A DNA stretch of 64,000 bases. Source: Hyphomonas oceanitis SCH89 (GTDB taxonomy: Bacteria > Pseudomonadota > Alphaproteobacteria > Caulobacterales > Hyphomonadaceae). The stretch is taken from assembly GCF_000685295.1 (NCBI RefSeq), contig NZ_ARYL01000022.1:1-64000 (forward strand), given 5' to 3'. The notes beneath the pieces are model-generated. The model had not been told where the DNA came from and ran no database searches. It saw only the letters and a program-made list of their open reading frames with translations. Both the position numbers and the translations under genes were made by a program. Of the stretch, positions 12,999-55,858 are shown piece by piece (positions within the stretch are counted from its first letter, which is position 1; each line of letters begins with the position of its first letter).

Positions 12999-13013
12999 TA
13001 TAACTAGGTTATA
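12999..13013. promoter_or_regulatory. Cluster operator, perfect TATAAC-TAG-GTTATA copy
   Basis: Exact inverted repeat with 6-bp arms and 3-bp centre. On the minus strand its right arm reads TATAAC and makes a plausible -10, with TGGACA 18 bp away (13032-13037) as -35, so a bound protein would cover the promoter of the thiolase-like/DUF35/ligase unit. Confidence 0.75.
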
Positions 13014-13072
13014 ATGCGCTTCTTTCGCCAGTGTCCAGACCTGTCTGTGGAAAACAAATGGCAACCTGATAC

Positions 13073-14299
13073 TCAGGCAAAGTGAAGGCGACGGTACTTG
13101 CCTTTGAAATAGAGCAACGGGTCGCGACGCGGTTCGTATTTCGCGCGCTCCACTTTTCCGACAAGGATGACGTGATCACCGCCGTCGTGCAGGGCATGTC
13201 GCGAACACTCAAAATTCACCAGCGCCCCCCCGATCAGCGGAACATTCTTCTGGCCGCGCTGCCAAGGCGTCTTGGCGAAGCGGTCCTCACCCGGCCGCGC
13301 GAATGCATTCGACACAGGCTGCTGACCGATGTGAAGCACGTTCACCCCGAAATGCTCGGCTTCCTCGATCACTTTCAGGCTGCCGGATGTCTTGGCGATG
13401 CAGACCAGGAGCAAGGGCGGGTCGAGCGACACCGATGTGAACGAGTTGGCGGTGAGGCCGACAGGCTCGCCCTTGGGGCTCATCGCCGTCACAATCGTCA
13501 CACCCGTCGCAAAGCATCCGAGCGCATCGCGCAGGGTACGCGCATCCGAGCCTGACCTGTAATCGGGCATGAAGCGCGGCACCCGTCGCTCGAGGAAATC
13601 AAGCAGCGTGGCGTTGAACAGGTCAGACCGGTCGAAGGCAACCATATGGCCAGCCTCTCTGATCTCCGCGAACTCGGCATTCTCGAACTTCTTCACATAG
13701 CGCCCGGCAGCATCTGCTGGCGTGAGTTCGCTCAGCGCCCCCCGCACGAACAGGACCGGCAGCTTGATGTTTTCGGCTGCTGCGGACACCCGGCGCGTCG
13801 CTGCCTCAAGATCCATGCCCTTCAGGAATTTCGGATCCCAATCTTTCTTCGTGTCTGTACGCTCGGCATACTTGCGCAAGGATTCGCTGACCTTGTGCGC
13901 TGCGGCGGCGTCTATTTCGGGTGGCGCATCGACGAGAACCAGTCCGGCAGCAAGATGCCCACCATCCTCGCCAATCGCCGCAGCTGCTATCCAGCCACCG
14001 AGAGAGGCCGCAACAATAACGGGTCGCGACGGCAATTGTGCCAGCACACATTTCAGGTCCTCAACGAATGCGTCGAGATCGTACCTGGCATCCGGCGGCC
14101 ATTCACTGGTCCCGTGTCCACGCAGGTCGAGATTGATGACCTGCCGACCAGCCGTAACCAGCGACGCTGCCACATCGCCCCAGACTTGCCGTGTCTGGCC
14201 ACCGCCATGAAGCAGGAGAACGGCCGGGTCGTCGGGAGAGCCGCTGACTTCAGCGCGAAGCGTAATGCCACCAAAGCCCTTAAATTCCTGTTCGGCCAT
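13073..14299 (-). CDS. Alpha/beta-hydrolase fused to a flavin reductase domain
   Basis: A 408-residue fusion. Residues 1 to about 240 are an alpha/beta-hydrolase with oxyanion motif H-G-G-G (about 31-34), nucleophile Ser99 in A-A-S-L-G-G and His218 in E-A-G-H; the acid is not certain. Residues about 255-408 are an FMN-reductase-like (flavin reductase/HpaC-type) domain with F-A-T-G-V-T-I-V and T-A-N-S-F-T-S-V motifs, which normally supplies reduced flavin to a two-component monooxygenase. In known pathways such domains are separate (for example the steroid enzymes HsaD and HsaB). No oxygenase partner gene is adjacent. It follows the GntR gene by 23 bp and is probably co-transcribed with it. 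Intact reading through the junction argues against a sequencing artefact. Confidence 0.85.
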   Translation of the reverse strand: MAEQEFKGFGGITLRAEVSGSPDDPAVLLLHGGGQTRQVWGDVAASLVTAGRQVINLDLRGHGTSEWPPDARYDLDAFVEDLKCVLAQLPSRPVIVAASLGGWIAAAAIGEDGGHLAAGLVLVDAPPEIDAAAAHKVSESLRKYAERTDTKKDWDPKFLKGMDLEAATRRVSAAAENIKLPVLFVRGALSELTPADAAGRYVKKFENAEFAEIREAGHMVAFDRSDLFNATLLDFLERRVPRFMPDYRSGSDARTLRDALGCFATGVTIVTAMSPKGEPVGLTANSFTSVSLDPPLLLVCIAKTSGSLKVIEEAEHFGVNVLHIGQQPVSNAFARPGEDRFAKTPWQRGQKNVPLIGGALVNFECSRHALHDGGDHVILVGKVERAKYEPRRDPLLYFKGKYRRLHFA

Positions 14300-14322
14300 C
14301 GGCCATTCCTCCCTCGGTCATC

Positions 14323-15039
14323 TTATGATTCTTTGGTCAGCCACTCGACGATCATGGCGGTGCGGCGCGCCATCAACAGGCGGGCGATCTCGGGATCGCC
14401 TGCGAGAATCGCATCACAAAGCTGAACCTGGAGGACGCGCGAGCGCTCCCGGTCTTCCGCCTGCTGGTAAAACCGGATGCTCTGCTCTTCACGGCCGAAC
14501 GTGTAGCCAATCTCCATGAAGAGGCCGATCGCGGGGTTGCCGCTCATCTCGGACAGGAGGCGCGCGAGACGGGTCTCCTGTAGGATCGTTGATTCCGGCG
14601 TGTCATCCGCTCCGGTTATCGCGGCCAGCGCGTCCCGGTGTGCGCGAAGCGCCTCTCGCAGTCCGTCCTCCTTGCACGCAGCGGCAAGAGCCGCCGCCTC
14701 AGTTGCGATCAGGCGCGTGACCACATGCACATCCATGAGTGTGGCACCGTTGAGTCGCAGGTATCTGGCGGGGGCGCGGATCACGTCGGCCGCCGAAGGC
14801 CGTGTCGCAAAGAAGCCGCCACCCTGCCCCTTGCGAACGGAAATCAGCCGGTCACTTTCCACGATCTTGGCCGCCTGGCGCAGGGTTGGGCGGCTGACGC
14901 CGAGACGCTCCAGCAGTTCGACTTCGGCGCCGAGATGGTCGCCTTCATTCGCAGCGAGTGAAAGGTCGGCCAGCCGTCGCGCCGTCTCCGATACGCGGCT
15001 GCGTGGGGAAACTCCCGACTCGACTGTTTCGTAAGGCAT
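14323..15039 (-). CDS. GntR-family (FadR/FCD-type) transcriptional regulator
   Basis: A 238-residue protein with an N-terminal winged helix (core L-G-V-S-R-P-T-L-R-Q-A, about residues 40-50) and a helical FCD-like ligand domain, the architecture of FadR-type regulators that sense acyl-CoAs or organic acids. The ATG at 15039 is chosen over the upstream frame start because GGAGT lies eight bases before it. It is divergent from the amidohydrolase gene. Two GTTACCTATT boxes (15061 and 15124) with the GT-N-AC core typical of this subfamily flank the intergenic region and are the likely operator of this protein. Confidence 0.88.
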   Translation of the reverse strand: MPYETVESGVSPRSRVSETARRLADLSLAANEGDHLGAEVELLERLGVSRPTLRQAAKIVESDRLISVRKGQGGGFFATRPSAADVIRAPARYLRLNGATLMDVHVVTRLIATEAAALAAACKEDGLREALRAHRDALAAITGADDTPESTILQETRLARLLSEMSGNPAIGLFMEIGYTFGREEQSIRFYQQAEDRERSRVLQVQLCDAILAGDPEIARLLMARRTAMIVEWLTKES

Positions 15040-15060
15040 GGCGCACTCCTGATCAAATTG

Positions 15061-15070
15061 GTTACCTATT
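15061..15070. promoter_or_regulatory. Putative GntR box, copy 1 (GTTACCTATT)
   Basis: Ten-base box with a GT-T-AC core, repeated identically at 15124-15133, 63 bp (six helical turns) away. It lies between the GntR gene and the divergent amidohydrolase gene. A related GTAACCTATA is found upstream of the second GntR gene. Confidence 0.5.
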
Positions 15071-15085
15071 TTGGCGATTTTGGTC

Positions 15086-15100
15086 AATAACCTAGTTGTA
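15086..15100. promoter_or_regulatory. Cluster operator, 13/15 match
   Basis: AATAACCTAGTTGTA on the plus strand, keeping the ACCTAGTT core. It sits between the two GTTACCTATT boxes in the divergent GntR-amidohydrolase promoter region. Confidence 0.65.
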
Positions 15101-15123
15101 TAACTCGCATTTTTGAATTATTA

Positions 15124-15133
15124 GTTACCTATT
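15124..15133. promoter_or_regulatory. Putative GntR box, copy 2 (GTTACCTATT)
   Basis: Exact direct repeat of the box at 15061-15070, here about 40 bp upstream of the amidohydrolase start. Confidence 0.5.
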
Positions 15134-15174
15134 AGAAGTCCAAAATGACACGCAATGCAATCGGGAGACACTCC

Positions 15175-16281: not shown

Positions 16282-16311
16282 TACTCCGGTCCTCCAACTG
16301 GAACACCTTGA

Positions 16312-16350
16312 CCCTCTCAGCCCGCAATGGCTGGGAGGGTTTCTTTTTGT
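16312..16350 (+). terminator. Rho-independent terminator after the amidohydrolase gene
   Basis: An 11-bp stem (CCCTCTCAGCC with GGCTGGGAGGG, one T-G pair), a six-base loop CGCAAT and then TTTCTTTTT. It overlaps the last codons of the convergent MFS gene. Confidence 0.85.
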
Positions 16351-18796: not shown

Positions 18797-18816
18797 GATC
18801 AAATCCTCAAACAGGA

Positions 18817-18842: not shown

Positions 18843-18874
18843 CCAGGAATGGTTTCAAACGCGGGACGTCCGCA

Positions 18875-21238
18875 TTATTTGGCGCCGAAACGGTAGGTGC
18901 CCGTGATCCCGTATGTCGCTGGCTCACGGCTCTGGCCACTCACATAGCCGAAGTTCGAGATGTACAGGCTCGTCCGGTTGTCACGATTGTCGAGTACGTT
19001 ACGACCCCATACGGCGAGTTCGAAACCGTTCCCGAAATCGATCCCGACCCGGGCGTTGAGGGCACCGCTGGCTGGCGAGGCAATCGCGTCCTGTAGCGCG
19101 TCCGACCCTGTCGACACTTCGCTGTTGAAGTATTCGTCACGCCAGGCGTAGTCGAGCCGTCCGGTGAGTTGGCCGAGTTCGATAGGCGCGCTGTAGATTG
19201 CGGCCAGGTTGAATTCGGATTCCGGAATGGCAATGAAGTGCCGGTCTGAGACGTCAACGCCTGCATCCAAGTATTCATCATACTCGGAATCAATGACCGA
19301 TGCGCCAGCCTGTACGCTGAAATAATCATTCAGGATGGCCGTCAGTTCTACTTCGACGCCGGTATTCTTCACCTTCGCCGCATTCTGGACGACCGTCGCA
19401 TTGGCGCCGCCGACAGCAATGATGACGGAGCGCTGGGCATCGTCGATCTCGTTGGTAAACGCTGCCACGTTCAGGCGCAGCCGGTTGTCCAGAAGATCTC
19501 CCTTGAAGCCGGCTTCGATCTCTTTCACGATCTCCGGATCGAAATCCAGGTCGCCAGTCCCATTCAGGCGCAGATTCTGGCCACCCGAGCGATAGCCGCG
19601 GCTATACTTGGTATAGACGAGAACATTGTCAGTCAGCTTGTAATCGACCCCGAGCGTATAGGACACGTCGTCGAACGTATCCGAATAGGTTTCCTGACAG
19701 TTCGGCGGCGTCTGGCCGCCAAGGCAAAAGAACACAACGCCGCTCGGAACGAAGGAACGCGAATTGTTCGTCGTGACGCCCTTTTCGTCTTCAGAATAAC
19801 GGACACCAGCCGTCACCGCGAGCTTGTCCGTCACGTCATACGTGCCCTGCGCGTAGACACCGACACTCGTATTGTCGATGTCGCCGCGATAGTTGAGTTC
19901 AAACGGACCAGCCCCCGGGACAGCGAAAAGCAGCGTCCGTGTATTGGTCTTGTCGAACCCGGTCTCCTCGAAATAGGTCGCCCCGACAACATAGCTCAAC
20001 CGGTCTTCTAGCAGGCTGCCAGCATACTGGCCTTCGATGGACGATTGTTCGAGGCTGATGCCTGAACCGGTTGCATGCATCGATGTCACATCAGTGCCAC
20101 CAAGCGAGCCGCCATCAAGGTCGAGAACGCCCGCCGATTTCACTTTGCGCTGGCCGGCAATCAGCTTGAACTGGCCGCCCTCAACGTCCCATGTCAGTGT
20201 ACCATTATACGTCTGGCTGCTTGCCCGCAGAAATGGGTTCGCATCAAGGGCAACATCGTCACCATCCGAGCCTTTCACCACATTTACATAGTCGGGAATA
20301 ACGACTGGGAACGTCGTTCCGGGCGCCGCCAGAGGGTTGATCCCTGCAAGAAAAGCCCCCGTCAGTCCGGCAGCATAGATCGTGCCACTACCCGGACCAT
20401 TCATGTTCTGGTCGAACCATTCGCCCGAAAGGACGAGTCGGATCGAATCTGTCGGCGTATAAAGAATCTTGGCGCGCGCGTTGCTGATATCGCGATTGTT
20501 GTAGTCTTCACCGGTCACAAGGTCGTTGATGTAACCATCACGTGAGCTCATTTGGATCGCACCGCGAACCGCAAGAACATCATTGATGATCGGGGCGTTG
20601 AATATCCCCTTATAGGTTTGTGCACTGAGATTTCCCAGGCTTGCTTCCAGTGTCCCCGACATGCCGTCAAAATTCGGATCGGCCGTTGTGATGAGAATAG
20701 CACCGCCGGTCGTGTTACGGCCAAACAGGGTCCCCTGCGGGCCCTTCAAAACCTGCACGCCTTCGATATCAAGAAGATCAATATTGAGGCCATAGGCACG
20801 CGCCCAGTAATAACCATCAACATAGGTTCCGACAGACGGATCGAGCGTCGCAAGAACGTCGTTCTGGACCTGGCCGCGCATCGAGAAGATCGAGGCCGTA
20901 GGATTGGAGCTCCCTTCGCGGATTGTCAGGCCGGGCGTGAAGGCTGCCAGGTCGTTGACCTGCACGACGCCTTTTTCTACCAGTTCGGCGCCTGTGAAGG
21001 CAGTGACAGCAACAGGAACATCCTGGAGGTTTTCCTCAACCTTCCGTGCCGTGACGGTCACGATTCCAAGCCGGCGTGCGGTCGCTTCTGCATCAGCCGC
21101 ATCTTGCGCGACAGCCGGTAAACCGATGATCGCGGCACCCAGAGCCGCCGCCGAGACACCGAGAATATTGAATTTACAAGCCTGCGCGCCGGATGGCGAC
21201 TGGACGGAGCTGTGGTTCGTATTGAATCTCTTTGTCAT
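18875..21238 (-). CDS. TonB-dependent outer-membrane receptor, copy 1
   Basis: A 787-residue receptor with a signal peptide ending near A-V-A-Q-D-A, a TonB-box-like I-V-T-V-T-A-R-K stretch and a plug domain with the motif G-P-Q-G-T-L-F-G-R-N-T-T-G-G. A 22-strand-type barrel with alternating hydrophobic strands follows, to a C-terminal Y-R-F-G-A-K. Such receptors take up large or hydrophobic nutrients with energy from TonB. The ATG at 21238 is chosen because GGGAGG directly precedes it. The cluster operator lies 47 bp upstream. Confidence 0.92.
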   Translation of the reverse strand: MTKRFNTNHSSVQSPSGAQACKFNILGVSAAALGAAIIGLPAVAQDAADAEATARRLGIVTVTARKVEENLQDVPVAVTAFTGAELVEKGVVQVNDLAAFTPGLTIREGSSNPTASIFSMRGQVQNDVLATLDPSVGTYVDGYYWARAYGLNIDLLDIEGVQVLKGPQGTLFGRNTTGGAILITTADPNFDGMSGTLEASLGNLSAQTYKGIFNAPIINDVLAVRGAIQMSSRDGYINDLVTGEDYNNRDISNARAKILYTPTDSIRLVLSGEWFDQNMNGPGSGTIYAAGLTGAFLAGINPLAAPGTTFPVVIPDYVNVVKGSDGDDVALDANPFLRASSQTYNGTLTWDVEGGQFKLIAGQRKVKSAGVLDLDGGSLGGTDVTSMHATGSGISLEQSSIEGQYAGSLLEDRLSYVVGATYFEETGFDKTNTRTLLFAVPGAGPFELNYRGDIDNTSVGVYAQGTYDVTDKLAVTAGVRYSEDEKGVTTNNSRSFVPSGVVFFCLGGQTPPNCQETYSDTFDDVSYTLGVDYKLTDNVLVYTKYSRGYRSGGQNLRLNGTGDLDFDPEIVKEIEAGFKGDLLDNRLRLNVAAFTNEIDDAQRSVIIAVGGANATVVQNAAKVKNTGVEVELTAILNDYFSVQAGASVIDSEYDEYLDAGVDVSDRHFIAIPESEFNLAAIYSAPIELGQLTGRLDYAWRDEYFNSEVSTGSDALQDAIASPASGALNARVGIDFGNGFELAVWGRNVLDNRDNRTSLYISNFGYVSGQSREPATYGITGTYRFGAK

Positions 21239-21284
21239 ATTATTTCCTCCCACGAACCCACGTCATGGGGCTCTGTTTTACTTG

Positions 21285-21299
21285 TATAACTAGGTGCAC
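21285..21299. promoter_or_regulatory. Cluster operator, 11/15 match upstream of TonB receptor 1
   Basis: TATAACTAGGTGCAC: the left arm and the AACTAGGT core are exact and the right arm is degenerate. The reverse complement of the same degenerate form occurs at 34068. Confidence 0.6.
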
Positions 21300-23177: not shown

Positions 23178-24683
23178 TTAGGGGGATGTCTCGAAAAGCT
23201 TGCGGATCTGCACCACGGCCGGCTTCATTGACGCCGTGCGCGGCAGGTCACGCACCGCCAGGAACCGCACCGGTGTCTGGTAGGGCAACAATTTGTCCTT
23301 CAGGTAGGCTTTGAGGTCTGCAACTGGTGGCAGCGTCGCGCCATCGGCGAGAATGATCGCAGCGACTGGCACTTCGCCGAGACGCGAGTCGGGTACGCCG
23401 ACCACCGCCGCTTCACGGATCGCAGGATGCTGCTCCATCACGCGCACAACATCGTCCGGATGAATCTTGAAGCCGCCACGCACAATGGCATTATCGGCCC
23501 GCCCCTTGATGAACAGGAACCGGTCCGCATCCAGCACGGCCCGGTCAGTCGTGCGGCGCCATGAGTCTGCATCGCCAAGCTGCGGCGCCTTCAGCTCCAG
23601 CAAGCCCTCGACGCCTGCCGCCACCGGCTCGCCCGACTCCGCGTCCACGATCCGCGCTGTCACATCGTGATGCAACCGCCCCGCAGCGCCGCGCTTGTCA
23701 CTCCAGTGCAGACGGAAATCCTTCAGGGACCAGCCTGCGATCGCTCCGGCGAACTCGGTCGCGCCGTAATTGCCCAGGATCGGCAGGTCGTAGCGCGTGA
23801 GGAATTCGTCGACGATGGCGGGGTCCAGCGGAGCCGTGCCGCTGATAATCGCCGACAGGCTCGAGAACGTATCCGCCGGCAGATTCGCTTCCAGTATCAT
23901 GCGCAGCGCGGCAGGTACGCCTGGCGCGACCTTGGGCCTGTGCCGGACAACCGCATGCGCCCAGTTCTCCACCGAGAACCGCTCGACAAGGCATATCCGG
24001 CGTCCCGCCATCAGCGCGCCAATGACACCGTAGATCCCGCCAATATGCGTCACGGGATTGATGATCAGGGTCGTATTGTCCCGCAGCTTCACTTGCGGCG
24101 TCAGCTCACGTGACTTTTCGTACTTCGCCACGGCCGCAAAGCTGGCATCAAACGCGGCGCGTGTCAGCGGCACGCGCTTGGGCTTGCCTGTCGTGCCGCT
24201 TGTCAGCATTTCGATGGCGATGGCCTGAGACCCGGCCTCATTCGGCAGCTCACCGCGGCCCTTCGTCTTCAGAACCGTTGCGCCCAGCAAGGGGTCAATC
24301 TCGATGATGGCCGCGCCGGACGCTTCAAGCGCCGTCCGTATCCCGGGACGGGCGAGGTCCGACGCCTCACCGACGACGACAGGCACAGCGAGGCTGGCGA
24401 TATCGCCTGCGAGCGTCTCGTCGGGATAGAGCGGGTTCAATGTGACGAGGCACCGGTCCGATGCGAGCACGGACAGGATCGCCGCCACGTGACCCGGCCG
24501 GTTGTGCAGCAGCACGCCGACGCGCCCACCCGCAGGAATGTCCAGCGCGGTCAACAAATCGCTGATCGCATCGACCTGCGCGTTCAGTTCGCCCCAAGTA
24601 TACCAGACATCCTTGTGATCAATGACCGGCGCTGCCTCGTCGAGTGCCATGACGGCGCGCAGTGTGTCTGTGATGATGGCCAT
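23178..24683 (-). CDS. Acyl-CoA synthetase (AMP-dependent ligase), copy A
   Basis: A 501-residue ANL-superfamily ligase with the P-loop L-T-S-G-T-T-G-K-P-K, Y-G-A-T-E, the hinge region G-R-A-D-N-A-I-V-R-G-G-F-K-I-H-P and an A10 lysine in T-A-S-M-K-P. It activates a carboxylic acid to its CoA ester. It is clearly paralogous to the ligase at 50958-52481 (shared G-W-S-L-x-D-F-R and T-T-D-R-A-V blocks), suggesting related substrates. It is first gene of a unit with the HSD10-like SDR and DUF2889; a perfect operator copy lies 45 bp upstream. Confidence 0.88.
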   Translation of the reverse strand: MAIITDTLRAVMALDEAAPVIDHKDVWYTWGELNAQVDAISDLLTALDIPAGGRVGVLLHNRPGHVAAILSVLASDRCLVTLNPLYPDETLAGDIASLAVPVVVGEASDLARPGIRTALEASGAAIIEIDPLLGATVLKTKGRGELPNEAGSQAIAIEMLTSGTTGKPKRVPLTRAAFDASFAAVAKYEKSRELTPQVKLRDNTTLIINPVTHIGGIYGVIGALMAGRRICLVERFSVENWAHAVVRHRPKVAPGVPAALRMILEANLPADTFSSLSAIISGTAPLDPAIVDEFLTRYDLPILGNYGATEFAGAIAGWSLKDFRLHWSDKRGAAGRLHHDVTARIVDAESGEPVAAGVEGLLELKAPQLGDADSWRRTTDRAVLDADRFLFIKGRADNAIVRGGFKIHPDDVVRVMEQHPAIREAAVVGVPDSRLGEVPVAAIILADGATLPPVADLKAYLKDKLLPYQTPVRFLAVRDLPRTASMKPAVVQIRKLFETSP

Positions 24684-24727
24684 GGCGCCGCCTCCCGGAA
24701 TTCAGAGCAGCGCTCACGCGCCACTTA

Positions 24728-24742
24728 TATAACTAGGTTATA
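24728..24742. promoter_or_regulatory. Cluster operator, perfect TATAAC-TAG-GTTATA copy
   Basis: Exact match. On the minus strand TATAAC (24737-24742) is placed 16 bp after TTGCAT (24759-24764), a plausible -10/-35 pair for the ligase operon, so binding here would block transcription. Confidence 0.75.
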
Positions 24743-24778: not shown

Positions 24779-25345
24779 TCAGTCCGCGTCGATGATCATC
24801 TGCAGTGATCGTGCAAGCCAGGTTCGGACCCCAGGGGAAACCTGTCCTTCGAAGGGAGCTAGCGGCAACACAAGCCGGTAGGTGAAAAATCCCGTCGCAA
24901 TCGCCATGATCTGCGCGGCCCGCGCTTCAGCATCATGGCCCCCGATCCACGCCTCAAGCGGCTTGAGCGTCGATTCACGCAGGAGACGTACAGCAATGGC
25001 CTGCGTGCCTTTGTCGGCCGCCGCGAAGACGAGCATGGGCAGGGGATTGATCCGCCCTTCGGGATCCGACGTGAACAGTCGCGCCACGGCATCACCAAAA
25101 TCCTTGCGCGGCACGCCTGTCAGCAAGCCGGAATCGAGCACTTCACTCAGCGCTTCCTCGAACAGTTTTTCCTTCGATCCGAAGTAACGGCTCACCAGAG
25201 CCGGGTTCGCCCCGGCCTGCGCCGTGATCTCCTTCAGTGATGCTTCGCCATAGGGCCGCGTCGAGAAGACCTGCTGCGCCGCCACAAGGATTGCCTCGCG
25301 CGTGCGCGCCGCGTCCCTTTTTCGGATGTCCTGAACTTCGTTCAT
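24779..25345 (-). CDS. TetR-family transcriptional repressor
   Basis: A 188-residue protein with an N-terminal TetR helix-turn-helix (A-R-T-R-E-A-I-L through L-V-S-R-Y-F-G-S-K-E-K-L, about residues 12-57) and a helical ligand domain. The motif spacing is like the NfxB/CerR-type C-terminal groups. It is divergent from the P450 gene, with a perfect 16-bp palindrome in the P450 promoter between them, so it very likely represses the P450 operon and perhaps itself. A degenerate copy of the cluster operator overlaps its start codon. Whether it also controls the other operator sites is open. Confidence 0.88.
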   Translation of the reverse strand: MNEVQDIRKRDAARTREAILVAAQQVFSTRPYGEASLKEITAQAGANPALVSRYFGSKEKLFEEALSEVLDSGLLTGVPRKDFGDAVARLFTSDPEGRINPLPMLVFAAADKGTQAIAVRLLRESTLKPLEAWIGGHDAEARAAQIMAIATGFFTYRLVLPLAPFEGQVSPGVRTWLARSLQMIIDAD

Positions 25346-25358
25346 GCACTTGGTTATA
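25344..25358. promoter_or_regulatory. Half-site of the cluster operator at the TetR start codon
   Basis: The right half GGTTATA is exact, the rest is degenerate (10/15). It overlaps the ATG of the TetR gene and is the weakest of the listed sites. Confidence 0.35.
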
Positions 25359-25364
25359 TATGTA

Positions 25365-25392
25365 TTGACAGTTTTGTAAATCGTGATTTACT
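25365..25392 (+). promoter_or_regulatory. P450 operon promoter with embedded palindromic operator
   Basis: TTGACA (25365-25370) and TTTACT (25387-25392) are 16 bp apart. The perfect inverted repeat GTAAATC-GT-GATTTAC (25376-25391) fills the spacer and overlaps the -10, the classical arrangement for repression by a dimer such as the divergent TetR protein. Confidence 0.75.
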
Positions 25393-30822: not shown

Positions 30823-31449
30823 TCATGCGCCGGGCAGGAGGAAGTCATCGACGTCGATACCGGTAATGCTACCGGTCACATAGGCCGCAAAATCGCTGAC
30901 GAGATAGGACGCCAGCGCGCCGAGTGAACGCAACTCCTGCTTCGTACCTCCGCCAACGACACGGCTGGCAATCGTGTTCACGCGAATGCCGTCCCGCGCC
31001 CATTCCACCGCCAGCGTCTTGGTCAGGTTGCCCAAACCGCCGGACGCGGCCGCCTGCACCGTCCCGCCGCCGTCTTCGGGCAGGTCAAGGAACAGGATCG
31101 ATCCCGTCAGCCCCTGCGCGATCAGGCTTTTCGCCAGCTCCGCCGCATAGAAGAACCGGCTGTCCAGCCCGGCTTGCATGCCCGCGCGCCACGCTGCAAG
31201 GTCAAGCTTCTCCGCACGCATAGTCGACACCGGCCCGCCCGCATGCACCAGCAGAGTCACCGGGTCGCGCGCCGCTGCGCTTGCCGCCACTATCGCTTCA
31301 GCCGCCACCGCATGGCTGCCCGCTACCGGCCCACGCGCAATCGTCGCGCCGGCCGCCGCTAGTTCATGCGCCACGGCTTCCACGCCCTCGCCCTCACCAA
31401 TGACAATCGCCACCGGGTCTTCTAGCCAGCTCGGCACTGTGCGGCTCAT
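30823..31449 (-). CDS. SDR-fold protein lacking the catalytic residues
   Basis: A 208-residue SDR-like protein. The glycine-rich cofactor loop is altered to I-V-I-G-E-G-E-G-V. The active-site helix, which should contain Y-x-x-x-K, reads Q-A-A-A-S-G-G-L-G-N-L-T-K with neither Tyr nor Lys in register. The rest of the fold (L-A-V-E-W-A-R-D-G-I-R-V-N-T-I) is well conserved. It overlaps the preceding DECR-like SDR by four bases and precedes another SDR, so it is probably a non-catalytic partner of one of them. A decayed gene is less likely, because the frame is intact and coupled. Confidence 0.78.
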   Translation of the reverse strand: MSRTVPSWLEDPVAIVIGEGEGVEAVAHELAAAGATIARGPVAGSHAVAAEAIVAASAAARDPVTLLVHAGGPVSTMRAEKLDLAAWRAGMQAGLDSRFFYAAELAKSLIAQGLTGSILFLDLPEDGGGTVQAAASGGLGNLTKTLAVEWARDGIRVNTIASRVVGGGTKQELRSLGALASYLVSDFAAYVTGSITGIDVDDFLLPGA

Positions 31450-32327
31450 GCGGTATACCCCCAGACATTCGATCGCTGGTTCGGCGGCACAAAGTCCGGC
31501 GACATCAGCGCCCGCCTCAGGCTCTCGCCCCCGTCAATCATCATCACCTGCCCCGTTATGGCCGATGCAAACGGCGAACAGAGGAAAGCCGCCGCCCAGC
31601 CGAATTCCTGCATCCGCCCCGTGCGCCCGGCCGGGATCATCCGACCGAGGTTTTCCACCACGTCCGGGTCATCGCCATTCGTTGAGGCGCCATGCGGGAA
31701 GAAGCCCGCCGCCACGCAGTTCACGCGGATACCGCTGTCCTTCCAATCCCTCGCGAAGGCTCGTGTCATCGTCGCCACGGCCGTCTTCGCCGCAGCCGAG
31801 TGCGCATCACCCGGAAACCCGGTCCAGATATATTGCGCGCTATTGTTGACGATCGCGCCCCGCGCACCCAGCGCCAAGCGCCGCCGGGCAAACTCCGTCG
31901 AGCACAGGAAGGTGCCATCAATCGCGATCCGCGTGATCGCGTTCCACGCATTCGTCGACAGGGCCTCTGCCAGCGCGGGGAAATTCCCGCCCGCATTGTT
32001 CGCCAGGATGCTCACCGGCCCCAGCGCCGCTTCCGCCGTATCGAACGCCGCGCTCACCGCTACCGGGTCACGCACATCAGCGCTCACCGCCAGCGCCGTC
32101 TCACCCATGGCCTCGATCTCGGCCACCACGGCTTGCGCCTTTTCAAGGTCTCGGCCGACAATCGCCAGCTTGGCACCACCCTGCGCAAAGGCCAGCGCCA
32201 TGCCACGCCCCATGCCTGAGCTGCCGCCAGTCACCATCACGACATCCTCGGAGAACACCGCCTCCGGCAGGAAGGATCGCTCCGCAAAGGGCGGCTCCAC
32301 GATCCGGTTAGGTCTCTTGGTCGCCAT
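31446..32327 (-). CDS. SDR-family oxidoreductase, 2,4-dienoyl-CoA reductase-like
   Basis: A 293-residue SDR with T-G-G-S-S-G-M-G and N-N-A-G-G-N-F. The active-site helix reads H-S-A-A-A-K instead of Y-x-x-x-K. Replacement of Tyr by other residues before A-A-K, and the N-N-A-G-G-N-F sequence, are seen in peroxisomal or bacterial 2,4-dienoyl-CoA reductases, which reduce conjugated dienoyl-CoAs with NADPH. It is the first gene of a four-gene unit; a degenerate cluster operator lies 60-75 bp upstream. Confidence 0.82.
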   Translation of the reverse strand: MATKRPNRIVEPPFAERSFLPEAVFSEDVVMVTGGSSGMGRGMALAFAQGGAKLAIVGRDLEKAQAVVAEIEAMGETALAVSADVRDPVAVSAAFDTAEAALGPVSILANNAGGNFPALAEALSTNAWNAITRIAIDGTFLCSTEFARRRLALGARGAIVNNSAQYIWTGFPGDAHSAAAKTAVATMTRAFARDWKDSGIRVNCVAAGFFPHGASTNGDDPDVVENLGRMIPAGRTGRMQEFGWAAAFLCSPFASAITGQVMMIDGGESLRRALMSPDFVPPNQRSNVWGYTA

Positions 32328-32386: not shown

Positions 32387-32401
32387 TGTAACCTGGTAAT
32401 C
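32387..32401. promoter_or_regulatory. Cluster operator, 11/15 match in a divergent promoter region
   Basis: TGTAACCTGGTAATC, between the SDR unit (minus strand) and the NTF2-like gene (plus strand). Its position favours the start at 32417 for the latter. Confidence 0.5.
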
Positions 32402-34067: not shown

Positions 34068-34082
34068 GCACACCTAGTTATA
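34068..34082. promoter_or_regulatory. Cluster operator, 11/15 match upstream of the acyl-CoA dehydrogenase
   Basis: GCACACCTAGTTATA; the core ACCTAGTT and one arm are exact. It overlaps no gene and lies just after the stop of the ligase at 34087. Confidence 0.6.
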
Positions 34083-34086
34083 TAAC

Positions 34087-35610
34087 TCAATGCCCGGCGG
34101 CACGCGTCCTCAAGTCCGCCTTCAATACCTTGCCTGTCGCGTTGCGTGGCAACGCCGCAATCAGCTCTACCACTTCCGGCGTCTTCTGCTTCGCGATGCC
34201 GAGCGCCGCGAAATGCGCCTTCACGTCTTCGAGCGAGGGGGCAGCGCCATCGGTCATTTCCACATAGACTTTCACCCGCTCACCCAGCCGCTCGTCCGGC
34301 ATGGCCACCGCGGCTGCGTCAACAATGCCTGACATGCGCCGCATCGCATCTTCCACTTCGCGCGAGGAAATGTTCTCACCGCCGCGGATGATGATGTCCT
34401 TCTTTCGGTCGGTGATGTGCAGGTACCCGTCAGCATCCACATGCCCGACATCGCCAGTGCGATACCATCCACCCGGCAGGAACGCTTTCTGGTTCAGGCG
34501 CGTGTCAAAGTAGCCGAGAAACAGTTCCGGTCCGCGCGTCACGATCTCACCGTCACCCGTCTCCAGCACCTTGTCGTCTTCATCCACGATCAGGATTTCC
34601 GACCCCGGCATCACACGTCCTTCGGTATTCAGCCGCGACTCCAGCGAATCCTCCGCCTTGCCCATCGTCACCGTCGGATGCTCGCTCGAGCCATACGCGT
34701 GCACGACACTGATCCCGAGATCGACGCAACGCTGCACCAGCGCAGCCGGCACTGGCGCGGCTCCGAGCACATAATTCTGCAGGCTCGACAGGTCGCGCCC
34801 GTCTTCGGCCGCCGCATCCAGCAGGCCGCTCATGTGAAACGGCGTGCCGGACGATGCGGTGATCTTGTACGTGTCCACTAGCCGCGCCGCCTCTTGTGCA
34901 TTCCACTGGTCCATCGCCACAACCGGCGTACCGTGCGCCACAAAGCGCAGCAACTGCAATGCCCCCGCGACATGTCCCGGCGGCCAGGGTGACAGGAAAG
35001 TCTCCTCCTCTACCGGACCGCGCGCCTCCGCCTGCGAATCCAGCTCCGCCAGCAGCGTCGCGCCGGAATGCATCACGCCTTTCGGATCCGCCGTCGTGCC
35101 AGACGTATAGACCAGGAAGGAAAAAGCTTCCGGCGCCACGCGCGCAGGGTCGCCGCCTGGTTCACCGGCTTCGAGCACGGCATAGCTGTCGCCCGCAACA
35201 AAGTGATGTTTCAGGTCCGGCAGGTCGCCACACGCCGCCAGCAACGCCGCATAATCCGTGCCCCGAAATTCATCCGGCGTGACGATCGCTTTTGCGCGCG
35301 ACTGGCGCAGCACGAAAGCCAGATCCTTCGCCTTGTAGATTGTCACGATCGGCAGGAATACGGCGCCCGCATAGGCCGCACCGACCAGCGCTGTCAGCCA
35401 TTCGGCCCAGGCCGGCAGCATGACCGCCACGACATCGCCTTTGCCAATGCCCAATTCCCGGAAACGCGCACCTACCGCCTCGCCACGCTGAAACAAATCG
35501 GCCAGCGTTGTGATTTCAGGACGCACATCGGAATGCACGACAAGGCGCGCCTCCGGCTGTGCTCTGGCCGCCAGCACAAACGCATCATGCAAACTTGAAT
35601 GAAATGCCAT
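34087..35610 (-). CDS. Acyl-CoA synthetase (AMP-dependent ligase)
   Basis: A 507-residue ligase with all ANL motifs intact: P-loop Y-T-S-G-T-T-A-D-P-K, Y-G-S-S-E, Y-R-T-G-D, D-R-K-K-D-I-I-I-R-G-G and the A10 lysine in N-A-T-G-K. Closest in motif pattern to 2,3-dihydroxybenzoate/cyclohexanecarboxylate-type CoA ligases, but the substrate is uncertain. The ATG at 35610 follows GGGAG; the longer upstream frame lacks a ribosome-binding site. It is divergent from TonB receptor 2. Confidence 0.88.
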   Translation of the reverse strand: MAFHSSLHDAFVLAARAQPEARLVVHSDVRPEITTLADLFQRGEAVGARFRELGIGKGDVVAVMLPAWAEWLTALVGAAYAGAVFLPIVTIYKAKDLAFVLRQSRAKAIVTPDEFRGTDYAALLAACGDLPDLKHHFVAGDSYAVLEAGEPGGDPARVAPEAFSFLVYTSGTTADPKGVMHSGATLLAELDSQAEARGPVEEETFLSPWPPGHVAGALQLLRFVAHGTPVVAMDQWNAQEAARLVDTYKITASSGTPFHMSGLLDAAAEDGRDLSSLQNYVLGAAPVPAALVQRCVDLGISVVHAYGSSEHPTVTMGKAEDSLESRLNTEGRVMPGSEILIVDEDDKVLETGDGEIVTRGPELFLGYFDTRLNQKAFLPGGWYRTGDVGHVDADGYLHITDRKKDIIIRGGENISSREVEDAMRRMSGIVDAAAVAMPDERLGERVKVYVEMTDGAAPSLEDVKAHFAALGIAKQKTPEVVELIAALPRNATGKVLKADLRTRAAGH

Positions 35611-35734
35611 GTCGTCTCCCGATCGAATTTTCAGTCGCAGGCGTTTCACAATGCGCGAGCCCGGACAAGCCTGATGAATCCATCTTGACCTCAAAATAGA
35701 TCGTCGACAGGACTTGCTATACTATGTTTAGTTA

Positions 35735-35749
35735 GTACACTAGGTTTAA
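35735..35749. promoter_or_regulatory. Variant cluster operator (CACTAGGT core) upstream of TonB receptor 2
   Basis: GTACACTAGGTTTAA, 9/15 to the consensus, sharing the CACTAGGT variant core with the site at 40429. It is placed between the ligase at 35610 and TonB receptor 2, 71 bp before the latter's start. Confidence 0.45.
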
Positions 35750-35819
35750 CAACTAAAAATTGACGGCGGGTCGCTCGGAATTCCGGGTGTCCCGAATATT
35801 CACAGGGGAGAAACAAAAC

Positions 35820-39553: not shown

Positions 39554-40366
39554 CTAAACGTTCAGCGCGTCGACAACCCGCTCACCTTCGCCGGGACCCG
39601 CCCAACGCGCATGGGCGTTCTTGAGGTGCAAGCGCCAGTGCGCAACGGCAGCTTCTTCTTCGTGCGCTTCGATCAGCTGAATCAGCTTGCGATACGACTT
39701 CATACCACCCAGGAGACGTTTCTTTCGGGTCTCGGGATCGATCGGATCGCGGCGCATGACGTCAGTCTTGTGATTGGCCATCAGGTCCAGGAGCATCTGG
39801 TTGATGAAGGTAAGCGTCTGGTTGCCGGCCAGCTTGACCAGCAGCAGGTGGAAATCTGCAACGCCGCGGGTGAAAGCCTCGATGCGCGACCCGTCGACAA
39901 GCGACAATAGGTACTCAAGATGCTCGCTCAGGGCCGCTACCGCATCCGTGTTGTTGCGCATCTGGCACAGTGTGCGCACGACGTATGGCTCAAGCGCCAT
40001 CTGCGACGCATACAGATCGGCAATCGTCGTTCCCTGCGATTGCAGGACATACCCGGCATAGCGGGACGCCACTTCGGCGCGTGGGCGGTGCACCTGCGCC
40101 CCGGAGCGCGATCCGCGTGTCACGGAGATAAGGTTCTCGGCTTCGAGGATGCGATAGGCTTCACGCAGGGTCGGGCGCGAGACACCGAGTGTTTCCATCA
40201 GCTGACCTTCCGGCGGCAGCGTGTCGCCCTCAGTCAACTCGCCGCGTACGATCTGGCCACGGATCTTGTCGGCAACGACTTCGGAGGTTTTTGGCGTCCG
40301 GATACGCTGTTGCGCACCACCGTTCGGCCGCAGGTCTTCACGTGTCATCGTCGATTTCGTTGTCAT
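39554..40366 (-). CDS. GntR-family (FadR/FCD-type) transcriptional regulator
   Basis: A 270-residue regulator. The winged helix (about residues 25-90) contains L-G-V-S-R-P-T-L-R-E-A-Y and a G-S-R-S-G-A-Q-V wing; the helical C-terminal domain has the FCD His-type positions (D-F-H-L-L, H-W-R-L-H-L). It is divergent from the CoA ligase at 40503. The intergenic region holds a GTAACCTATA box, resembling the GTTACCTATT boxes of the first GntR gene, and a variant cluster operator. The start at ATG 40366 has GGACGAA upstream. Confidence 0.88.
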   Translation of the reverse strand: MTTKSTMTREDLRPNGGAQQRIRTPKTSEVVADKIRGQIVRGELTEGDTLPPEGQLMETLGVSRPTLREAYRILEAENLISVTRGSRSGAQVHRPRAEVASRYAGYVLQSQGTTIADLYASQMALEPYVVRTLCQMRNNTDAVAALSEHLEYLLSLVDGSRIEAFTRGVADFHLLLVKLAGNQTLTFINQMLLDLMANHKTDVMRRDPIDPETRKKRLLGGMKSYRKLIQLIEAHEEEAAVAHWRLHLKNAHARWAGPGEGERVVDALNV

Positions 40367-40428: not shown

Positions 40429-40443
40429 GTTTACCTAGTGTAA
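40429..40443. promoter_or_regulatory. Variant cluster operator (ACCTAGTG core)
   Basis: GTTTACCTAGTGTAA, 9/15 to the consensus; within GTTTACCTAGTGTAAC six of eight half-site positions pair. It is in the divergent region between GntR and the ligase at 40503. Confidence 0.45.
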
Positions 40444-40502
40444 CATCTCAGGCAAAACTCTGCCAGATCAACCAATCCTGTACAATATTGACGGAATTAC
40501 AA

Positions 40503-45334: not shown

Positions 45335-45364
45335 GGTCGCTTCCCTTTTCGTCCGGACTAGTTA

Positions 45365-45379
45365 TTATACTAGGTTATA
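45365..45379. promoter_or_regulatory. Cluster operator, 12/15 match between two divergent NMO-like genes
   Basis: TTATACTAGGTTATA. On the minus strand TATAAT and on the plus strand TATACT lie within or beside it, so one bound protein could control both divergent transcripts. Confidence 0.65.
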
Positions 45380-50932: not shown

Positions 50933-50957
50933 AATGTGCTCTCCTTTGGATCCGCGC

Positions 50958-52481
50958 TCAGGCGGTGGCTTGAATTGGGTCTTCGAACAGGGCGCGCACA
51001 TCGGCGAGCGCCGGTTTCAGCGACGGGGTGCGCGGCACGTCGTCGACAAACATGAACTTCACGGGCACCTGGTAGGCAATGAGATGCTCGCGCGCATAGG
51101 CTTTGAGTTCGCCGGCATCCGGCTTCGCAACGCCGCTCTTCAACATGATCGCCGCGACAGGCACCGCGCCGAGGCGTCGATCGGGAATGCCAACCACGAC
51201 CGCTTCACGCACGGCCGGATGGCCTTCCAGCACCTTGTTGACATCATCCGGATGAACCTTGAACCCGCCGCGCAGGATGGCATTGTCCGCCCGCCCCTTG
51301 ATGAACAGGAAGTCGTCCTCATCAATCACTGCCCGGTCGGTCGTCCGCAACCAAGCACCCTCATTGCCGAACTGGCGCGCCTGCATTTCCAGAACGCCCT
51401 CTTCGCCGCGCGGCAGTTCTTCCCCGGTCTCTGCATTGACGACACGGCCTTTTACGCCCGTCTGGAACTTGCCGACGCTGCCAGGCTTGGACGCATAGTA
51501 TTTGCGGAAATCTCCAAGCGACCATCCTGCCACCGCTCCGGAAAACTCCGTTGCGCCATAGTTCTGCAGAACCGGCAGGTCATAGCGGTCGAGGAATTCC
51601 TGCGTGATCGCCGGGTCCAGCGGCTGGGCCCCGGTCCGCAGGGCCACGAGGCTCGCCAGGTCTTCACGTGGCAAATTCGCGTCGAGGATCATGCGCAGGC
51701 CTGTCGGCACCGCCCCGGCTACTTTCGGCCGGTGGCGCACGATCGCATCGCGCCAGACGTCGACTGAAAACTTCTCGATAATGCACGCCTTGCGACCCGC
51801 CAGGATGGTCGACAGCGCATGCCAGAGTCCGCCGATATGGGCCATGGGCCCGCCCAGCAATTGCACGCCGCTGCGCAGGCGCGGCGGATCGTCCGGGCTG
51901 CGGTCGGATTCATAGGACATCGCCGACTTGAAGCTCTGCAGGAAAGCGTCGCGCTGCAGCGGAATACGCTTCGGCGTACCCGTCGTACCGCTGGTCAGCA
52001 TCTCGATGATGACGCCCGGCTGCTCGCGGCGAATGTTTGCACCGGTGATTTTCTCGAAGCCGGGACGCAGGCGCGCGCCCTTCAATACCGGCTGCGTCTC
52101 GATAACCGCCGTGCCGGCTGCCTTCAACGTGTCGAGCAGGCCGGGCCGCGCGAAATCCTCGTCGATTCCGATCACGACTGGCAGGTCGAGCCGTTCAAGG
52201 TCGGCGCGCAGCTTGTCTTCCGGCAGCATATGATTGATCGACACCATTGTGCCATCGACGCTCACCGCGCTCAGAATTGCCGCGACCACGTCCGGATGGT
52301 TGCGGATCATGACGCCTATCCGCGCCCCTTCACCCAGGCCAAGCTCCGTCAGGGCGGCCTTTATGGCGTCGATGGACCGCTTCAAATCCCCCCATGTCGA
52401 CCATGTGTCATGAAAATCGATCACATCAGCCGATGGATCGATTTCCAGCACACCGTTCAGAAGGTCGGAGAGAAAGGACAT
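50958..52481 (-). CDS. Acyl-CoA synthetase (AMP-dependent ligase), copy B
   Basis: A 507-residue paralogue of the ligase at 23178-24683, with L-T-S-G-T-T-G-T-P-K, Y-G-A-T-E, G-R-A-D-N-A-I-L-R-G-G-F-K-V-H-P and an A10-type lysine in T-P-S-L-K-P. The ATG at 52481 follows GGGAG; the frame upstream to 52535 runs through the operator and is not coding. It heads the unit with MaoC, crotonase and the first acyl-CoA dehydrogenase pair, and has a perfectly symmetric operator 50 bp upstream. Confidence 0.88.
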   Translation of the reverse strand: MSFLSDLLNGVLEIDPSADVIDFHDTWSTWGDLKRSIDAIKAALTELGLGEGARIGVMIRNHPDVVAAILSAVSVDGTMVSINHMLPEDKLRADLERLDLPVVIGIDEDFARPGLLDTLKAAGTAVIETQPVLKGARLRPGFEKITGANIRREQPGVIIEMLTSGTTGTPKRIPLQRDAFLQSFKSAMSYESDRSPDDPPRLRSGVQLLGGPMAHIGGLWHALSTILAGRKACIIEKFSVDVWRDAIVRHRPKVAGAVPTGLRMILDANLPREDLASLVALRTGAQPLDPAITQEFLDRYDLPVLQNYGATEFSGAVAGWSLGDFRKYYASKPGSVGKFQTGVKGRVVNAETGEELPRGEEGVLEMQARQFGNEGAWLRTTDRAVIDEDDFLFIKGRADNAILRGGFKVHPDDVNKVLEGHPAVREAVVVGIPDRRLGAVPVAAIMLKSGVAKPDAGELKAYAREHLIAYQVPVKFMFVDDVPRTPSLKPALADVRALFEDPIQATA

Positions 52482-52530
52482 GCGTAAGGCTCCCTGCAGC
52501 TGCAGCGCGTCGCTGCAATTTTCTATCTTA

Positions 52531-52545
52531 TACAACTAAGTTGTA
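52531..52545. promoter_or_regulatory. Cluster operator, most symmetric copy
   Basis: TACAAC-TAA-GTTGTA, 12/15 to the consensus but a perfect inverted repeat that extends to 8-bp arms (52529-52547). Compensating changes on both arms show that symmetry, not only sequence, is kept. Confidence 0.75.
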
Positions 52546-52574
52546 TATCTGGAAAGAGCGGATGCGCGATTTGC

Positions 52575-53780: not shown

Positions 53781-53784
53781 GATC

Positions 53785-54897
53785 CTAAGCCGCCTCGCCG
53801 TCTTGTGCCCGCACCGCAGTGACCAGCTGGTCCGCCCAATAGCCTTTCGGCCCAAGGGTCAGCGCCAGCGTCCGTTCGCGCCGGTAGTAAAAATGGCAAT
53901 TGGCCTCGAACGTGTAACCGATGCCGCCATGCACCTGCAGGTTCTCCCGCGCCGCTGCACCGAAGGCCTCAAGCGAACTCAGCCGCGCCGCCGCTGCGGC
54001 CAGCGGCAGGTCGTCCGGCGCCTCATTTGCGGCCCAGCCCGCATAATAGGCATTCGACCGGGCGAGCTCCGTTGCCATCAGGATATCCGCCAGCTTGTGC
54101 TTGATGGCCTGGTAGCTTGCGAGCGGCCTGCCAAACATCTGGCGCTCCATGGTATAATCCCGGCCCATGTGGACACACGCCTCTGCCGCACCCACCGCCT
54201 CGAACGCTGCCTGCACGGCCGCGCGGTTCAGCACGCCGTCAATCACGTCGCTGTCCGCGCCGTCCAGCAGTTCGGCCTTGGCGCCGTCAAAATCGATCCG
54301 GTAATGCGCGCGCAACGCATCAAAACTGTCGAGCCTGGTCCGCGTCACCCCTGCCTGGTCCAGCTTGACCAGCGCCAGCGTCTCGCGCCCGTTGTGTGCG
54401 CACACGACAATGGCGACGCCCGCAATCCCCGCATCCGCCACCGGCGTCTTCGTCCCGATCAGCTCGCCACCGGCAAACCGCACGCCCGGCTTCGCCGGTC
54501 GCCAGCCCGTTTTTCCTTCCGCGTTGGCAAACGCAGCAACAACCTCACCGCTGGCCAGCAAAGGCAGCCATACCGCCTTTTGCGCCTCGCTCCCCGCAAC
54601 TGCCAGCGCATCGGCAGCGCACACGATCGACGAGAAGAACGGCAAGGCGCAATTCGCCCGGCCAAGCTCCTCACTGATGACGCCAAGGTCGAGATCGGCC
54701 AGTCCCAGTCCGCCATATGCTTCCGGAATGCGTGCTCCAAGGAATCCCATTTCCGCCAGCTCGCGCCACAATGGTTCGTCCCATTCGGCCCCTGCATCGA
54801 CAAGTTCGCGCAACCGGTCGTAGGGTGCGCGCTCGGCCAGCAGGCCCCGCGCCTGTTCGGCCAGCATTTTCTGCTCGTCAGAAAGATCGAAATTCAT
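53785..54897 (-). CDS. Acyl-CoA dehydrogenase, short subunit of a probable heteromer (pair 2)
   Basis: A 370-residue acyl-CoA dehydrogenase-like protein with Q-V-H-G-G-I-G-Y-T-F-E near the C-terminus and no Y-E-G-T motif, matching the short subunit of pair 1 in type. ATG 54897 is preferred, with GAGG upstream. The gene starts the unit of pair 2; the operator at 54940 overlaps its probable -35 (TTGACC on the minus strand). It is divergent from the crotonase at 55024. Confidence 0.86.
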   Translation of the reverse strand: MNFDLSDEQKMLAEQARGLLAERAPYDRLRELVDAGAEWDEPLWRELAEMGFLGARIPEAYGGLGLADLDLGVISEELGRANCALPFFSSIVCAADALAVAGSEAQKAVWLPLLASGEVVAAFANAEGKTGWRPAKPGVRFAGGELIGTKTPVADAGIAGVAIVVCAHNGRETLALVKLDQAGVTRTRLDSFDALRAHYRIDFDGAKAELLDGADSDVIDGVLNRAAVQAAFEAVGAAEACVHMGRDYTMERQMFGRPLASYQAIKHKLADILMATELARSNAYYAGWAANEAPDDLPLAAAAARLSSLEAFGAAARENLQVHGGIGYTFEANCHFYYRRERTLALTLGPKGYWADQLVTAVRAQDGEAA

Positions 54898-54939
54898 GAA
54901 TTCCTCGCCCGTATTTCTTTTGTCCACAATATCTACTTA

Positions 54940-54954
54940 TATAACTAGGTCAAT
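54940..54954. promoter_or_regulatory. Cluster operator, 12/15 match in a divergent promoter region
   Basis: TATAACTAGGTCAAT, with an exact left arm and AACTAGGT core, between acyl-CoA dehydrogenase pair 2 (minus) and the crotonase at 55024 (plus). Confidence 0.65.
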
Positions 54955-55023
54955 TAGCACTGGTGACATGCCGTTGCGCCAAGTAGGATGCCCGAAACAC
55001 TAGCACCACCCGGAAGGAAACCC

Positions 55024-55818
55024 ATGACATACGAGACCATCACCCTCGACATCTCGGGCCATATAGCGACGATCACATTGAACCGCCCCGACGCCATGAA
55101 CTCCTTCACACGGAAGATGATGGACGAATGCGCGCACGCCTGGCGCCACATCGCTGAGACCGACGATATCCATTGCGCCGTCCTCCGCGCGGCTCCGGGC
55201 CGGGCCTTCTCGACCGGTGTTGACGTGAAGGCCGCCATGCAGCCGGGCGGCTCGGTCATGCATGACAATATCTGGACGGCCGAAGATCCGGGCGAAAAGC
55301 TGGGCCCCAAGTCGAATCGCTGCTGGAAGCCCGTGATCTGCGCCGTGAACGGGATGGCCGCCGGCGGGGCTTTCTACTGGATCAATGAAGCCGACATCGT
55401 GATCTGTTCCGAGGACGCCACCTTCTTCGACCCCCACGTCACCTATGGCATGACCGCTGCCCTTGAGCCCATCGGCGCCACCTACCGCATGCCCCTCGGC
55501 GACGTGCTGCGTATGGCCCTGCTAGGCAATGACGAACGCATTTCCGCGATGACCGCCCTGCGCCTTGGCCTTGTCACCGAGATCACCCCCAACGAGGCCC
55601 TTTGGGACCGGGCCCAGGCCCTGGCCGAAATCGTCGCCGCCAAGCCGCCCGCCGCAACAGCCGGCACGGTCAAGGCGATCTGGGAATCCCTCGACATGCC
55701 ACGCTCCGTCGCCCTGCGGACGGCCCTCAAATATTGCCAGATCGGCAATCCCGTCGGTACCGCACAGGTCGATCGTGCCGCGCTCATGGGCACGAAGCAG
55801 GGCTACACCGTCCGGTAG
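55024..55818 (+). CDS. Enoyl-CoA hydratase/isomerase family protein
   Basis: A 264-residue crotonase with T-L-N-R-P-D-A-M-N-S-F, oxyanion region F-S-T-G-V-D-V and G-M-A-A-G-G-A. The positions of the two catalytic glutamates read D-P-H-V and A-L-E-P, so the first Glu is replaced; an isomerase, lyase or C-C hydrolase role is possible. ATG 55024 follows GGAAGG. It is divergent from acyl-CoA dehydrogenase pair 2 and has a second operator after its stop, upstream of the thiolase. Confidence 0.85.
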   Translation: MTYETITLDISGHIATITLNRPDAMNSFTRKMMDECAHAWRHIAETDDIHCAVLRAAPGRAFSTGVDVKAAMQPGGSVMHDNIWTAEDPGEKLGPKSNRCWKPVICAVNGMAAGGAFYWINEADIVICSEDATFFDPHVTYGMTAALEPIGATYRMPLGDVLRMALLGNDERISAMTALRLGLVTEITPNEALWDRAQALAEIVAAKPPAATAGTVKAIWESLDMPRSVALRTALKYCQIGNPVGTAQVDRAALMGTKQGYTVR

Positions 55819-55843
55819 GGCGCTTGCGAAAAGCGCTAACTTA

Positions 55844-55858
55844 TGTAACTAGGTGATA
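55844..55858. promoter_or_regulatory. Cluster operator, 13/15 match upstream of the thiolase
   Basis: TGTAACTAGGTGATA, directly followed by a TATAAT (55857-55862) that could be the -10 of the thiolase transcript starting before 55909. Confidence 0.65.

Follow-up and report, generated by a model that had tools for sequence, protein, structure and literature searches.

A catabolic cluster of 43 kb from Hyphomonas oceanitis SCH89 is described here, along with the operator that is repeated across it and the regulator that may read this operator. The window analysed runs from base 1 to base 64,000 of a contig of 71,204 bp (NZ_ARYL01000022.1), in a genome of 4.28 Mb. Within it, a 16-bp block, ASTTRTATAACTAGGT, recurs at 12 places, and the reading that a single operator is shared by the promoters for uptake, coenzyme A (CoA) activation and beta-oxidation is well supported. 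The cluster is probably one regulon of an FCD-type GntR repressor. Most likely, this is the protein termed GntR-B (39554..40366, minus strand), with a second such protein, GntR-A (14323..15039, minus strand), as a possible co-reader. By computation, the sites are found and conserved, are confined to the cluster in this genome, and persist in genomes in which no orthologue of the local TetR regulator (24779..25345, minus strand) was detected.

The original prediction described a 15-bp inverted repeat, TATAACTAGGTTATA, present exactly at 12999 and 24728 and in graded forms elsewhere, making thirteen operator sites. All 13 places were read, and the strings are indeed there. With up to three mismatches, the 15-mer gives nine strand-hits at seven sites, against 0.01 expected in shuffles. 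An operator model of 28 columns was trained on 77 sites from other genomes, with this genome excluded. When the 71,204-bp contig was scanned, 12 of the 13 sites scored 16.0-37.0, and every remaining position with a score of at least 6 was an overlapping register of those 12. The highest score across 40 Markov-simulated contigs was 13.3. All 12 operators lie outside coding sequence, save for a single-base overlap of one of them with a stop end; non-coding DNA makes up 9.5% of the window, the coding limits being drawn with our refined choice of start codons. The sites are thus between genes, as predicted, and are absent, also as predicted, from the protease block and the IclR unit. Three consecutive genes with trypsin-like protease domains (439-7268) lie outside the regulon. 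The thirteenth place, 32387..32401 (minus strand), upstream of the SDR gene 31446-32327, scores below 6. A congener carrying the same cluster, G022, has no match of 10 or more there; in three relatives (G235, G257 and G285), the promoter of this SDR gene holds GATAAC(C/T)AGGT sites. Judged from these relatives, 32387 may be a decayed operator.

The conserved block was re-registered to the 16-bp form. At up to two mismatches, all eight hits of this form in the whole genome (seven sites) fall inside the window and none elsewhere. At three mismatches, there are 22 hits genome-wide against 65 for a reversed-pattern control, and matches outside the window appear. The control often exceeds the pattern at two to three mismatches; with up to two allowed, it reaches as many as 25 hits in a single genome of the family. 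Isolated genome hits are, therefore, not counted as evidence, and significance rests on clustering and on low-mismatch hits. For ten of the 12 sites, all but 35739 and 55839, a counterpart was identified in G022; 149 of 160 bases are identical in these pairs, as compared with 60% when their 60-bp flanks are put into gapped alignment. Two further genomes of the same family carry the cluster, and the sites are found again at the corresponding promoters in Henriciella and Novosphingobium. The motif is real and is conserved in other bacteria. A literature search with the string TATAACTAGG returned no bacterial operator, as judged by title or by the start of the abstract, and further literature searches showed no paper whose listing describes this regulon, nor any description of the cluster. 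As a separate observation, four congeners in which there is no TetR orthologue each have one site of a near form, TATAACAAGGTTATA (L051, L052, L053 and L057).

Six of the sites stand before one gene. They are AGATATATAACTAGGT at 12994..13009 (plus strand; score 29.6; 16/16 bases identical in G022), upstream of the SCP2-thiolase operon (11764-12960 and the CoA ligases below it); ACTTGTATAACTAGGT at 21280..21295 (plus; 32.8; 16/16), upstream of the TonB receptor gene 18875-21238; ACTTATATAACTAGGT at 24723..24738 (plus; 34.2; 15/16), upstream of the acyl-CoA ligase gene 23178-24683; AGTTATATAACTAGGT at 34072..34087 (minus; 33.1; 14/16), upstream of the acyl-CoA dehydrogenase gene 32845-34008; TCTTATACAACTAAGT at 52526..52541 (plus; 26.0; 15/16), upstream of the CoA ligase gene 50958-52481; and ACTTATGTAACTAGGT at 55839..55854 (plus; 31.8; no G022 pair), upstream of the thiolase gene 55909. 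The other six lie between divergent genes, which brings the total to about 18 promoters. Here, AGTTATACAACTAGGT at 15090..15105 (minus; 27.6; 15/16) separates GntR-A from the amidohydrolase gene 15145; ACATATATAACCAAGT at 25348..25363 (minus; 21.4; 16/16) separates TetR from a P450 gene; AGATGTTACACTAGGT at 40433..40448 (minus; 17.5; 15/16) separates GntR-B from the CoA ligase gene 40503; AGTTATTATACTAGGT at 45360..45375 (plus; 21.7; 11/16) separates the nitronate-monooxygenase-family pair 44348 and 45407; and a second copy of ACTTATATAACTAGGT, at 54935..54950 (plus; 37.0; 16/16), separates the acyl-CoA dehydrogenase gene 53785-54897 from the enoyl-CoA hydratase gene 54988. The last operator, at 35730..35754, has two overlapping weak registers (scores 16.0 and 13.8), between the CoA ligase gene 34087-35610 and the TonB receptor gene 35820.

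The targets thus include two TonB receptors, the SCP2-type thiolase operon, CoA ligases, acyl-CoA dehydrogenases, an enoyl-CoA hydratase and a thiolase, together with two nitronate-monooxygenase-family flavoproteins, the amidohydrolase, the P450 and all three regulators. With the start codons as we chose them, the distance from site to start is 40-75 bp in 14 of 18 cases and 10, 33, 39 and 136 bp in the rest. It had also been proposed that most sites overlap a -10 or -35 element. This was not confirmed: a sigma-70 consensus scan overlaps only 2 of the 12 sites and gives a promoter count no higher than that of shuffles. The P450 is nearest to CYP101J2, CYP101D5 and P450cam, and the thiolase is nearest to a lipid-transfer protein structure; these relatives suggest a substrate resembling a cyclic terpenoid or a steroid side chain. 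Two side observations concern the genes themselves. In the product of the gene at 13073-14299, which has relatives in other clusters, an alpha/beta hydrolase is joined to a flavin-reductase-like domain. In one genome, G226 (L193-L194), several cluster genes match in two pieces, possibly owing to assembly frameshifts or decay.

The shape of the operator bears on which protein may read it. The 15-bp dyad ranks first among axes by simple complementarity (46 sites, one of 47, L077 at 18290, having been dropped), with its core pairs fixed by selection. When 30 axes were compared on held-out sites, it came second: TTAT|ATAA scored 26.9 bits, the TAG dyad 25.8 and TAT|AAC 25.0, with a median of 20.6. 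There is little information in the right arm of the 15-bp dyad, where the columns from +7 to +11 have 0.01-0.65 bits each. When 52531 and the two exact 15-mers are compared with their G022 counterparts, the ACTAGGT/ACTAAGT core and the part to its left are near-constant, and the right arm is changed. The symmetry noted earlier at 52531 is present; its right arm is not kept, being GTTGTA here and GTGTGC in G022. The 15-bp dyad is, then, one among several overlapping weak symmetries, no single dyad being settled. Of the common control proposed at the outset, the shared operator is well supported, and the 15-bp dyad is not established as its true axis. An asymmetric model reaches 32.4 bits on held-out sites as against 26.9 at most for the symmetric ones, a comparison that favours it in advance, as the sites were picked with an asymmetric consensus.

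According to the part of PMC4494728 that deals with these operators, sites of the FadR subfamily consist of TKGT/ACMA boxes, usually with 3 nt between GT and AC, and the NanR operator consists of direct repeats of TGGTATAW. The pattern TTRT-ATA-ACTA of the present sites appears to resemble such boxes (TKGT-ACMA, or TNGT-N3-ACNA with the spacer). In the 77 sites, the frequencies are T 70%, G 40% (A 59%) and T 97% in the left half and A 98%, C 98% and A 92% in the right, values that arise partly by construction, since the choice of these sites required AC and no more than two mismatches. The 16-bp block is flanked by a weaker box, the last base of which is an A at +12. No direct repeats of the NanR type were seen in the column frequencies of the 77 sites.

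Both GntR proteins of the cluster belong to the FCD group. For GntR-B, the Pfam GntR (2.5e-18, 65.9 bits) and FCD (1.7e-15, 58.0 bits) matches are both above the cut-off; for GntR-A, they stand at 9.8e-8 (FCD) and 7.7e-7 (GntR). A fold search with the GntR-B model ranks the FCD regulators LldR (2di3) and NanR (6on4) first, at a TM-score of about 0.4-0.5. GntR-B is favoured because of the sites at its own promoter and because of two plasmids. Counting a site at a model score of 8 or more, 23 of 25 GntR-B genes at 51% identity or above (21 genomes) have one at their own promoter, and 26 of 37 when distant homologues are included. On a plasmid of Sphingomonas paeninsulae, there are five hits in the 31 kb round GntR-B and one in the 31 kb round GntR-A, with two hits, both below 9, in a 50-kb control stretch. 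A plasmid locus of Rhodococcus sp. BH4 has two GntR-B homologues (40-42%) and seven hits, all intergenic, with one hit in its 50-kb control stretch; tblastn found no relative of GntR-A or of TetR 24779 at this locus.

Several observations weigh against GntR-B. Among its homologues at 42% identity or less, just 3 of 12 have an own-promoter site; the nine without it are those of Massilia, both Streptomyces, two of the three from M. branderi, Rhodococcus GD02 and DMU1, and two Sphingobium paralogues. No match at a score of 8 was found in the distant neighbourhoods of Massilia, Streptomyces and Rhodococcus DMU1. A paralogue in G137, at 55% identity, is without such a site as well, and that of S. 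paeninsulae GntR-B falls narrowly under the threshold. The single hit on the GntR-A side of the S. paeninsulae plasmid, at 25.6, exceeds all five on the GntR-B side (12.0-21.1), and the own-promoter sites of GntR-A, where present, outscore those of GntR-B. GntR-A and GntR-B were found together, the survey of their presence having covered site-rich genomes. The gene at the end of the BH4 locus is annotated TetR/AcrR. In the left half of the operator, A (59%) stands above the canonical G (40%). Finally, the DNA-binding domain is poorly resolved in the AlphaFold model of GntR-B, which was built on a three-sequence alignment; block pLDDT there is about 39-50.

GntR-A is, therefore, kept as a partner or rival. 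It is on the whole unlikely that GntR-A reads the operator alone, or that GntR-A and GntR-B do so together as redundant homodimers or as a heterodimer. In favour of this alternative, the two proteins share the recognition segment SRPTLR, and both were found in every site-rich genome looked at, including each of the 14 genomes covered by protein searches and the clusters of G226, G235, G257 and G285. A strong site is present at the GntR-A promoter in 16 of 23 cases. An asymmetric operator, as favoured on held-out sites subject to the selection mentioned above, would suit two different half-site readers, and a redundant, site-sharing GntR pair is known in Corynebacterium glutamicum (described in part of PMC2230225). 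However, the GntR-A promoter is without the site in 7 of 23 cases, and the site there also faces the divergent amidohydrolase gene. The S. paeninsulae neighbourhood of GntR-A has one hit where that of GntR-B has five, and the BH4 locus has sites with no GntR-A found. Rather doubtful is the more specific arrangement in which the two FCD proteins would jointly read the asymmetric operator, for example as a heterodimer sensing an early and a late intermediate, so that a dual-sensor switch over the entire cluster would result. Of five related plasmid loci from actinobacteria, three catabolic ones (L217, L218 and L234) likewise have two or three GntR-B-type genes apiece.

TetR 24779 was initially favoured as the cluster-wide regulator on co-occurrence. 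Among 105 genomes of the family, a TetR orthologue at E 1e-30 or better occurs in four, and these have 8-11 hits at up to two mismatches; the other 101 have 0-2. As the TetR-bearing genomes are the hit-rich ones, the sites belong to this cluster. The motif is found at 14 of 15 close TetR loci versus 4 of 65 distant ones, and in the four Hyphomonadaceae the start region of TetR is overlapped by a site. The genus to which G132, a Novosphingobium, belongs was covered with 195 genomes; 13 are site-rich (at least six sites at up to one mismatch), and 10 of these have a TetR orthologue (E 1e-25, with up to 17 candidates scored per genome). Nevertheless, at this cut-off no TetR orthologue was found in G226, G235 and G257, which hold six, eight and seven sites, respectively. 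In G226 and G235, the gap between ligase and P450 retains the site and contains no TetR gene. In G191, where a TetR orthologue is present, there is one such site, and it lies on a different contig; the 40 kb round its TetR gives a single weak hit of 11.6. In G137, a second site-rich copy of the cluster (C29, L203-L205) is without its own TetR, the genome's only TetR orthologue being on another contig.

The promoters of the TetR genes themselves point the same way. The shared operator is present at 4 of 18 (score 8 or more) and missing at the other 14. A different palindrome, GTAAAY-N4-RTTTAC, is found at 13 of the 18 and at none of four TetR-less loci. In the window, it takes the form GTAAATCGTGATTTAC at 25376..25391, in the gap between TetR and the P450, as the sole copy in the contig, and it is likely to be the operator of TetR itself. 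Since the sites persist without a TetR orthologue and TetR has a separate palindrome, TetR is disfavoured as the cluster-wide repressor, a role we consider very improbable, and it is apparently not required for the shared operator. Of the candidates originally put forward, the GntR proteins are thus retained and TetR is set aside.

It is equally improbable that the operator is read by a protein whose gene lies elsewhere in the genome, such as a MarR-family regulator. AT-rich dyads of such size are common for other regulator families. However, the low-mismatch hits in this genome are all in the cluster, as expected of a cluster-encoded regulator, and GntR-B goes with the sites across orders and in the Rhodococcus loci. 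That the motif is a shared promoter element, such as the -10/-35 of an alternative sigma factor, is hardly credible, for although it is AT-rich and asymmetric, lies mostly 40-75 bp before starts and has the same orientation at four of six single-gene sites, the single-gene sites 34072 and 55839 are reversed, the distances span 10-136 bp and six sites stand singly between two divergent genes.

From the sequence comparisons, we infer that GntR-B is the binder and that it acts as a repressor, and we propose the following scheme for its effector and substrate. A dimer of the FCD GntR protein would bind the 16-bp block at the 12 places and so cover about 18 promoters. When bound 40-75 bp before the start, the repressor would keep RNA polymerase from the promoter. 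It would be released once its FCD domain bound an intermediate of the pathway, perhaps an acyl-CoA thioester. Such a release would turn on outer-membrane uptake, CoA activation and beta-oxidation jointly, along with the regulator's own gene. TetR may form a second, local layer, acting through the palindrome at 25376 on itself and on the P450-ALDH-SDR genes. A conserved operator and a likely regulator can thus be assigned to a large catabolic cluster common to Hyphomonadaceae and Novosphingobium. The operator may be used to find further genes of the pathway, and the regulator can be tested directly. Furthermore, genomes without one of the candidate regulators can help in separating clustered regulators that share one motif.

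The proposed arrangement has parallels in known systems. KstR and KstR2 are cluster repressors of steroid catabolism, and they are TetR proteins with different motifs. By analogy, one local repressor would serve many operators across an acyl-CoA catabolic cluster; the difference is that TetR proteins do so there, whereas the TetR here apparently controls only its own promoter region. The Atu1419 protein (VanR) of Agrobacterium fabrum is likewise an FCD GntR repressor, with a palindrome over the -10 box; it differs in that this is a 10-bp palindrome, ATGTATACAT, which occurs three times, and once more in degenerate form, across two promoter regions (as far as described in part of PMC7797058). 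In C. glutamicum, GntR1 and GntR2 are also two GntR regulators of one pathway, with sites within one to two mismatches of TNGTNNNACNA, according to the part of PMC2230225 that concerns them. That pair was demonstrated to be redundant; for the pair here, redundancy is one candidate arrangement. In architecture, there is a likeness to the FadR-subfamily (FCD) repressors LldR, NanR, PdhR and VanR, which, like GntR-B, combine a GntR winged helix with an FCD domain. The AC half-site and the weaker flanking box of the present operator also appear to resemble those of the subfamily, as portrayed in part of PMC4494728. Unlike in these repressors, the operator here is asymmetric, A replaces the canonical G in most left halves, and 12 operators are gathered in one 43-kb cluster in which two FCD regulators and a TetR occur together.

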